NCBI GenBank assembly: GCA_019752335.1
Contig: JAIEMJ010000011.1
Span: 62,001 to 126,000, forward strand
Direction of reading: 5' to 3'
Source: Bryobacteraceae bacterium
GTDB lineage: Bacteria; Acidobacteriota; Terriglobia; Bryobacterales; Bryobacteraceae
DNA length: 64,000 nt
Under the pieces are notes generated by a model. That model saw only the letters and a list, made by a program, of their open reading frames with translations. It ran no database searches and was not told the DNA's origin. A program made the position numbers and the translations under genes. Of the stretch, positions 54,972 through 57,047 are shown piece after piece. Position 1 is the first letter of the stretch; the number at the start of each line of letters is the position of its first letter.

Positions 54972-55135
54972 TTGCGGGAGGAGTTCGGGTTTCGCGGAGA
55001 TTGGCGCTACCCCTTTTGCGATTCCGCGAGGAGTGCTTCTCTGTTGCACCTCAATGGGAGTAATCGCGTGAACAGCCGTTGCACGCTGAGAAAAAGCACA
55101 CAAACGACCTGGCCTTAAGGAGTGGGAACACAGTC

Positions 55136-56734
55136 ATGGCTGAAGTTGCAATTGAAATACCTGGATACGGAACGCAAGTGGGCGAGGCGCCGATTGTTCT
55201 TCTAGGACCGAACGGATCTGGAAAGACTCAACTCGCACAAAAGATTGCGCGTGCCCAAAGTGTTTGTGCGATAAGTGCGCAGCGTCGAACTTGGGTTGAC
55301 GACAATCTTCCGGTCCAAGATGAACAGAATCTTCGCAGCCATACTCGATCACAACAAGACAGATGGCGAGACAACGCATGGCAGCAGATCGAAGACTTCA
55401 ACTTCATATTGTCGACTCTTGTTCAAGAGCATACGAATCAACTCACGTTGAACAATGAGAATGCAATCGCCTGCAATGAAGCGGTTCAGCCCGTCAGGGA
55501 CAGCAAGCTGATGCTCCTTCAAGGCCTTTGGAGCAGACTGTTTCCAAAAAGAAAGCTGGAAGTTAGTGGCTTTTTTCCTCGTGTGCGGCGACTCGATGGG
55601 TCCGCAGACGATGCCCCGTATCATCTTCGGCAAATGAGTGACGGCGAGAGAACTATCCTCTACATGGCGGCGCGAGTCCTTACGGCGGAGTATCCCGTGA
55701 TTTTGGTAGACGAACCTGAACTTCACATGCACAGTAGGCTTTCGGTAAAATTTTGGGACGAAGCAGAGAAGCTCCGCCCCGACTGCCGTTTTTTGTACGT
55801 AACCTACGACTTGAACTTTGCCCTCTCTAGACGCCGGGCAACTGTCCTGATCGCGAAATTGGATGGGGCAACATCGATCGTCATGGATGAAGTTCCATCG
55901 TCAGTTGCGACGGAGGTTTTGGGCGCAGCGACGCTACCGTTTTACGCCAAACGGATATTCTTGTTCGAGGGCGAGCAAGGTAAGGGCTTTGCAAGTGAGT
56001 TTTTCTCTGTCTGGTTCGATGACGATGAGACCTTTACAATTCCTTCGGGCAACAGAGATTCAGTATGCTCCGCAGTATCGGGCCTAAAAACAGTGGGACT
56101 TGTAGCTGCCGATGTCATCGGTCTAGTCGACCGTGACTTCTACTCGGATGAAGTCTTGCGTGGGGTCACTGCGGGCGTGACGGTTCTTCCCGTTCACGAG
56201 ATTGAGAGCGTGCTGTGCGATCAACACGTGGTCAAGGCGCTAGCTTCTTACCTTGGCAAAGAGCCGAGTGAAATCTGGAATGACTTCCTCAATCGGGTGC
56301 GAACTACGTTTCAGGCCAAGACGCTCAACAACGTTGTGGCGCGACGTGTCCGATCACGAGTTGGCGATCTGCTCGACGGGGCATTTACTGGAGCGCAAGT
56401 CGTTGCGGACGCAGCAAAGACAGGTCAGAATCACCAGGACACGCTCGTCAATCTGGACCTCCCTTCAAAAGTGGGTTCGATGTTCGCTGAGGAATCGCGG
56501 CGCGTAGCCGATGCCCTGGCCGGCGACGGAACCGACTTATTGGCAATTCTACCTGGGAAGCACGCACTAGATATCCTGAGTTCAGTGCTGGGACTGAGTG
56601 ATGTCAAGCAGCTTACTGGTCTAGTAACTAGCTCGCTCGACCGCAGGAGGTTGAAGCCCGGCGACTCCATCCATAGCCTCGGTCATCAGATCGAGACCGC
56701 CCTCCTTCTGTACCTGCCCCCTCGCATTGCATAG
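55136..56734 (+). CDS. AAA ATPase with C-terminal DUF4435/TOPRIM-like domain (fused PARIS-like)
   Basis: A 532-aa protein. Residues 1-270 are an ABC-type/OLD-like ATPase: Walker A GPNGSGKT (24-31), signature-like QMSDGERTILYMAAR (166-180) and Walker B VILVDEPELHMH (188-199). The usual switch His is absent; the site reads VTYDLNFA. From about 272 the text matches DUF4435: IFLFEGEQGKGFASEFF (acidic Glu278/280), IGLVDRDFYSDE (DRD at 332-334) and VHEIESVL (Glu355), a TOPRIM-like acidic set. This is the domain pair of PARIS AriA plus AriB in one chain. The ATG at 55136 follows AAGGAG. GC and codon use are visibly lower than in the flanking genes, suggesting horizontal gain. Confidence 0.8.
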   Translation: MAEVAIEIPGYGTQVGEAPIVLLGPNGSGKTQLAQKIARAQSVCAISAQRRTWVDDNLPVQDEQNLRSHTRSQQDRWRDNAWQQIEDFNFILSTLVQEHTNQLTLNNENAIACNEAVQPVRDSKLMLLQGLWSRLFPKRKLEVSGFFPRVRRLDGSADDAPYHLRQMSDGERTILYMAARVLTAEYPVILVDEPELHMHSRLSVKFWDEAEKLRPDCRFLYVTYDLNFALSRRRATVLIAKLDGATSIVMDEVPSSVATEVLGAATLPFYAKRIFLFEGEQGKGFASEFFSVWFDDDETFTIPSGNRDSVCSAVSGLKTVGLVAADVIGLVDRDFYSDEVLRGVTAGVTVLPVHEIESVLCDQHVVKALASYLGKEPSEIWNDFLNRVRTTFQAKTLNNVVARRVRSRVGDLLDGAFTGAQVVADAAKTGQNHQDTLVNLDLPSKVGSMFAEESRRVADALAGDGTDLLAILPGKHALDILSSVLGLSDVKQLTGLVTSSLDRRRLKPGDSIHSLGHQIETALLLYLPPRIA

Positions 56735-56799
56735 AATCGACGATTGAGCGTTGGATGGGATGCAGCCGAAACGGTCAACCCGAAAGCGCGACGTAACAT

Positions 56800-57036
56800 A
56801 TGAGTAGAAAACATTTGATTAGCACTCCCATCAATGGCGACGACCTCCTGCCCGAATATGATTTTTCCGCTGGGGTTCGAGGAAAGCACAATCAGCAGTA
56901 TCGGGAGGGCACGAACGTCCTATTCCTCGATGCCGATGTCGCAAAAGCTTTCCGTAACTCTGAGGCAGTCAACCAGGCTCTGCGGCTCCTTCTCGATCTT
57001 GCGAAACGTCAGCTACCGCCGGACCGCGCAGTCTAA
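56800..57036 (+). CDS. Small conserved protein (EYDFSxGVRGK type)
   Basis: A 78-aa protein with LLPEYDFSAGVRGKHNQQYREGTN and VLFLDADVAKAFRNSEAVNQALRLLL. The EYDFS-x-GVRGK and LDxDVAxxFxxSExVNxAL text is known to me from a widespread group of small bacterial proteins of unknown role, sometimes listed as antitoxin-like. It sits 65 nt behind the ATPase-DUF4435 gene on the same strand, inside the same lower-GC stretch, so it probably arrived with it. Whether it acts with it or not cannot be said. Confidence 0.6.
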   Translation: MSRKHLISTPINGDDLLPEYDFSAGVRGKHNQQYREGTNVLFLDADVAKAFRNSEAVNQALRLLLDLAKRQLPPDRAV

Positions 57037-57047
57037 TCAGGCCCTCG

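Follow-up and report, generated by a model that had tools for sequence, protein, structure and literature searches.

The locus considered here lies in a 64,000-nucleotide stretch of a Bryobacteraceae genome (contig JAIEMJ010000011.1; "the window") and comprises a gene for a protein of 532 residues, in which an ATPase half is followed by a putative nuclease half, and a second, small gene for a protein of 78 residues (Table 1). The upstream neighbour is a gene that we take to encode a ROK kinase. Downstream lie a Gfo/Idh/MocA oxidoreductase, recognised by Pfam, and what is presumably an AcrB-like pump. The reading frame of the large gene is intact.

Table 1. Features of the locus, in window coordinates.
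Feature	Position	Strand	Basis
Fused AriA-AriB gene (probable single-gene PARIS), 532 aa (532 codons; ATG at 55136, stop codon ending at 56734)	55136-56734	+	PDLC02982 AriAB match; AAA_21 and DUF4435 above Pfam cut-offs
ATPase half, residues 1-260, predicted ABC/OLD type	55136-55915	+	Homologue alignment; structural matches to AriA and PtuA
DUF4435/TOPRIM nuclease half (putative), residues ~270-532	55943-56731	+	PF14491, 32.0 bits; AriB structural matches
Codon 224 (TAC, Tyr), switch-His position, in VTYDLNFA	55805-55807	+	Homologue alignment; codon read
Six-residue segment ATLPFY (residues 265-270), directly before the TOPRIM strand	55928-55945	+	Alignment
78-aa antitoxin-like gene of a BrnT-linked family, no BrnT beside it	56800-57036	+	Family neighbourhoods

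The published detection rule for PARIS asks for AAA_15 or AAA_21 together with DUF4435, with two-gene thresholds of 27 for AAA_21 and 27 for DUF4435 (PMC9122126). Both halves of the fusion exceed these thresholds: the ATPase half reaches 34.3 bits with AAA_21 (Pfam cut-off 27) and the C-terminal half 32.0 bits with DUF4435 (PF14491; cut-off 27; aligned residues 274-392). The initial annotation had described the gene as a PARIS-like fusion of an ATPase and a DUF4435 domain, which the profiles bear out. Of the models that it had named for checking, AAA_21, DUF4435 and AriA match, while AAA_15 stays below its Pfam cut-off (14.6 versus 32.1 bits). The PADLOC model PDLC02982, named AriAB, matches residues 18-492 with an E value of 6.6e-56, followed by a second AriAB model (2.9e-12), AriA (2.8e-11) and AriB (1.2e-9), and leads the runner-up by 144 bits. 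At E 0.001 the same profile also matches six of 14 control genomes, so that only strong full-length matches count. The top PHROGs family is phrog_25246, labelled "ABC transporter" (E 1.1e-52), and NCBIfam yields ATPase-type matches only, far under their cut-offs. A phmmer search of the PDB with the whole fusion finds no PARIS chain; most of its matches are generic ATPases, with E no better than 0.003. A sequence profile retrieves AriA as a weak match (E 0.0017) behind transporters and retron ATPases. With the C-terminal half, the profile search of PDB chains gives four weak matches, AriB not among them.

Of the predicted structures, the whole-chain model has a pLDDT of 78.9 and a pTM of 0.50. 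The N-terminal half of the model aligns with AriA (8ux9_B) at Z 13.8 over 219 residues and 3.6 Å, and with retron PtuA chains at Z up to 14.9. Because PtuA scores slightly higher, the predicted fold is that of an ABC/OLD-type ATPase and not of AriA specifically. Modelled alone, the C-terminal half (residues 265-532) has a pLDDT of 85.0 and a pTM of 0.82, and the AriB chains 8ux9_A and 8v46_D are its first and second Foldseek matches (E 0.011 and 0.015), none of the matches reaching E 0.001 or better. The same two chains are the top two of 997 aligned to this model by VIA-align 2, at Z 10.2 (201 residues, 7.6 Å) and 9.0 (207 residues, 7.9 Å), values that fall below the Z of about 13 under which helical folds can match by chance. 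The next matches listed are a designed protein (Z 7.3), OLD (7.1) and GajA (6.6). The C-terminal half is thus predicted to have an AriB-like fold at a moderate level of match.

OLD and Gabija GajA share with the fusion the one-chain layout of an ABC ATPase followed by a TOPRIM domain, and the protein might accordingly be a nuclease of that kind, cutting phage or host DNA instead of tRNA. The C-terminal model does match OLD at Z 5.7-7.1 and GajA at Z 6.4-6.6, and the first Foldseek match of the whole-chain model is a Gabija entry with an E value of 8e-7, yet a TM-score of only 0.19. However, the C-terminal half fits AriB better than either, and the model that comes second to PDLC02982 is itself an AriAB model, whereas GajA and Old are absent from the best 25 of 57 PADLOC families. 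Such a DNA-cutting enzyme is unlikely. The preferred reading, to which a probability of about 0.7 is given, is that the fusion represents PARIS, an anti-phage system, in single-chain form and probably arrived by horizontal transfer. On sequence and structural models, its sensor would be an ABC ATPase of the AriA-like kind, and the TOPRIM nuclease joined to it would be AriB-like and retain its acidic residues.

The one-chain form, which had at first been taken as out of the ordinary, is not. Single-gene ariAB fusions of PARIS were already described in 2022 (PMC9122126), PADLOC has two models named AriAB, and on plasmids seven homologues of 518-740 codons are each annotated as a single gene, named either "DUF4435 domain-containing protein" or "AAA family ATPase", which indicates that one-gene forms are widespread. 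The fusion is a divergent new example of this described type. It agrees with single-gene AriAB (PMC9122126, PDLC02982) in domain order, motifs, the presence of both Pfam domains above cut-off and length, its 532 residues comparing with 570 profile positions in PDLC02982. It differs in having a Tyr in place of the switch His, in the ATLPFY segment and in its position on a long separate branch with a protein from Desulforudis. In comparison with two-gene PARIS, the predicted folds of its halves match the AriA and AriB chains, but the fusion is one chain with its halves in a 1:1 ratio, and its ATPase half has about 260 residues versus 464 for the AriA chain in the PDB. The two forms can also occur side by side. 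On a Paraburkholderia sabiae plasmid (NZ_CP125297.1; L064, 2345-6620) a two-gene PARIS lies directly upstream of an AriAB fusion on the same strand, with scores of 2e-27 for AriA, 5.2e-23 for AriB and 3.8e-175 for single-gene AriAB.

Conservation was read from an alignment of the fusion with 24 rows of homologues, representing 23 distinct sequences and drawn from plasmids, viral contigs, genomes of relatives and the Desulforudis MAG. Each row is an open frame with a match at E 1e-14 or stronger. The count excludes copies of the gene from the window as well as duplicate loci (L001, L002, L005, L006, L024, L025, L026), and the rows of L057 and L068 stop short at the C terminus. The fused proteins L061 and L062 are more distant and best fit the other AriAB model; they fall below the row cut and are present only in an earlier alignment. 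The ATPase half carries a Walker A motif (GPNGSGKT, residues 24-31), a signature (MSDGE, 167-171) and a Walker B motif (ILVDEPE, 189-195). Lys30, Ser168 and Asp169 occur in all 24 rows and the Walker B Glu193 in 22. Two IMG/VR contigs with identical fused homologues (L106 and L107) read VDTPE at Walker B, with Thr where the consensus has Glu, so that other fused members also depart from the ATPase consensus. As putative nuclease residues the fusion carries Glu278, Asp332, Asp334, Glu355 and Glu357. The first four had been singled out from the sequence as kept, and they are: Glu278, Asp332 and Asp334 are conserved in 24 of 24 rows. Glu355 is found in 20 of 24 and Glu357 in every row, which makes Glu357 the better conserved partner.

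ABC ATPases use their switch His to contact the gamma-phosphate. At this position the fusion has Tyr224, as the initial annotation had noted from the segment VTYDLNFA, while the homologue rows have His in 23 cases, Gln in one and Tyr in none; the Gln belongs to a fused homologue in another genome (L059, in G502). Tyr224 may alter or slow ATP hydrolysis. The switch His is usual in the PARIS ATPase and is not part of the detection rule (PMC9122126). A residue seen in none of the 24 rows might also mark a decaying or inactive PARIS copy with an ATPase impaired by Tyr224, and the absence of the gene from the same-genus genome would fit a recent arrival without selection for its upkeep. Decay is nevertheless improbable. 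Apart from the intact frame and the remaining motifs, which are kept, comparison with the Desulforudis gene reveals differences at 144, 80 and 331 of the 532 first, second and third codon positions, respectively, the mark of purifying selection, although it speaks for the whole history of the gene and not for its last steps. The ATLPFY segment is common to the fusion and the Desulforudis homologue and corresponds to a gap in the other 23 of the 24 rows. As a mark of this branch alone it was rejected, since L061 and L062 likewise carry about five residues at this point.

The Desulforudis protein is the closest relative among the genome contigs scanned and their sole match, the scan being based on exact peptide patterns that detect close relatives only. 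It is encoded in a Desulforudis MAG (L023), is 68% identical over its full length and has a His at the switch position. Upstream of its gene, at about 1.4 kb, is a large serine recombinase, and downstream, at about 2.6 kb, a phage-type (tyrosine) integrase; the region (L023, 2599-11182) is possibly a mobile island. A maximum-likelihood tree groups the two proteins at 100/100; the inner branch that carries them measures 3.67 changes per column and is flagged by the tree tool as possibly misplaced. No further members of this close branch were found in viral contigs by pattern scans, among the matches listed in 395 other genomes of the phylum sample (up to three candidates scored per genome) or among those listed in 297 relatives of the Desulforudis genome (up to four candidates scored).

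The gene is foreign to its surroundings in composition. Its GC content is 0.53 and its GC3 0.55, the 78-aa gene has a GC3 of 0.56, and the 31 non-overlapping window ORFs of at least 250 aa, the fusion included, have a mean GC3 of 0.80 (sd 0.057), the fusion being the lowest of them and the next lowest standing at 0.71. The AT-richer stretch that had been seen by eye, and from which horizontal transfer had been suggested, is therefore real. Distribution is patchy as well. Long homologues are present in two of 200 relatives (G054, 34% identical; G154, 31%), and 16 more match over 67-159 residues only, at E 9e-6 or weaker. G001, the one same-genus genome listed, has no homologue of the fusion, and the gene is thus not shared by all close relatives. 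In the phylum sample the fusion protein finds a match at 1e-12 or better in two of 395 other genomes, and the AriAB profile matches 44 of 396 genomes at 0.001 and only five, counting the window genome, at 1e-14 or stronger. In G001 the left-flank DUF4010-ROK block and the right-flank FabD-AcrB-Gfo block lie on two contigs, each with other neighbours. The insertion point coincides with this break in synteny; a clean empty site was not found in G001, and the comparison with it cannot tell in which lineage the break arose. Taken together, the foreign composition, the scattered occurrence and the break in synteny make it probable that the fusion was acquired horizontally. As to the means of insertion, there are no convincing flanking repeats, and the sole tRNA gene of the window is at 21 kb. 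A comparison of the insert DNA with plasmids gave no match. Scanning for promoters and terminators gave no more signals than shuffled sequence did.

The 78-aa gene had initially been regarded as a companion of the fusion, an association that its family does not support. The protein has no match at E 1 or better in Pfam, PADLOC or PHROGs and a single one in NCBIfam (0.21, far under the cut-off), and none of three family members scanned reaches a Pfam cut-off. The family is found in 78 of 201 genomes, with up to six matches per genome. Its matching ORFs number 35 in the loci compared, of which three are the window gene itself and one is a duplicate; the 31 that remain are not a random sample, 29 being best-match loci, one accompanying the G054 homologue of AriAB and another being a weak match in the window genome. 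For 26 of these 31 distinct ORFs a BrnT homologue shares the open frame or lies no more than 300 bases away on the same strand, and two of the BrnT partners reach the PF04365 cut-off. The window genome has nine BrnT matches, seven of them over the cut-off, and none of the nine is on the window's contig. The 78-aa gene thus resembles BrnT toxin-antitoxin modules in its family and differs from them in the lack of BrnT and of a Pfam match for the 78-aa protein. The gene is most likely an orphan antitoxin of this BrnT-linked family, unrelated to PARIS. The frame preceding its ATG reads like a BrnT tail, in the same register as in six relatives. A BrnT stub upstream of the gene was rejected as a candidate: 1,988 of 20,000 shuffles score equally well or better, and tblastn matches to the frame have E values of about 12 and 25 among those listed.

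The proximity of the two genes could still suggest that PARIS here has a third component in the 78-aa protein, which would act on the fused effector as antitoxin or regulator. Its gene begins 65 nt past the fusion stop codon, on the same strand and with an equally low GC3, and in G054, from the same family as the window genome, a relative of it lies just upstream of a fused AriAB. That relative, however, itself follows a BrnT toxin gene, and 26 of the 31 family ORFs counted above are BrnT-linked. The family is moreover common, whereas only 3 of 201 genomes, the window's own among them, have a long AriAB homologue, and the surroundings of the 68% homologue in L023 yielded no member of it. Such a role is very improbable. 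The G054 locus (L057, 6293-8393) consists of the BrnT gene, the 78-aa relative and then the AriAB homologue, which is cut by the contig end.

According to published work, E. coli PARIS is triggered by anti-restriction proteins and acts by tRNA cleavage and abortive infection (PMC9122126, PMC12409363, PMC11455837), AriB is a two-metal tRNase that is inactive as the E26A variant, and AriA and AriB are sometimes fused (PMC12409363). A hexamer of AriA holds up to three AriB and releases them on Ocr (PMC11455837). By analogy with two-gene PARIS, the single-chain protein likely acts by phage-triggered tRNA cleavage and growth arrest. The ATPase half would oligomerise and keep the nuclease off until a phage counter-defence protein, e.g., Ocr, binds the ATPase oligomer. 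The nuclease halves would then pair and cleave host tRNAs, and growth would stop before the phage multiplies. Activation would have to come from a rearrangement within the oligomer, as the nuclease could not leave as free AriB does: in one chain release of a free nuclease is impossible, a constraint that applies to any fused member. HSDR_N matches of type I restriction, two of them strong, occur elsewhere in the genome and would suit a defence that responds to anti-restriction proteins, a fit and not a proof. Because its sole close relative shares with it an inner branch of such length (3.67 changes per column), trigger and substrate of the protein may differ from those of known PARIS. Improbable is the further proposal that the fusion and its Desulforudis relative form a separate mobile lineage of one-chain PARIS; the switch of the window protein would work without the usual His, which would make activation less dependent on ordinary hydrolysis of ATP, and its nuclease would fire in place within the oligomer on a trigger other than the known ones.

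A limited literature search found no fused PARIS protein that had been studied by experiment. In the published accounts, PARIS is activated through the release of AriB from the AriA hexamer, a route that a one-chain member cannot take. Of the features of the fusion, the Tyr at the switch position most deserves a test, and the fusion, being compact, divergent and changed at its ATPase switch, would offer a handle on how fused PARIS proteins fire.
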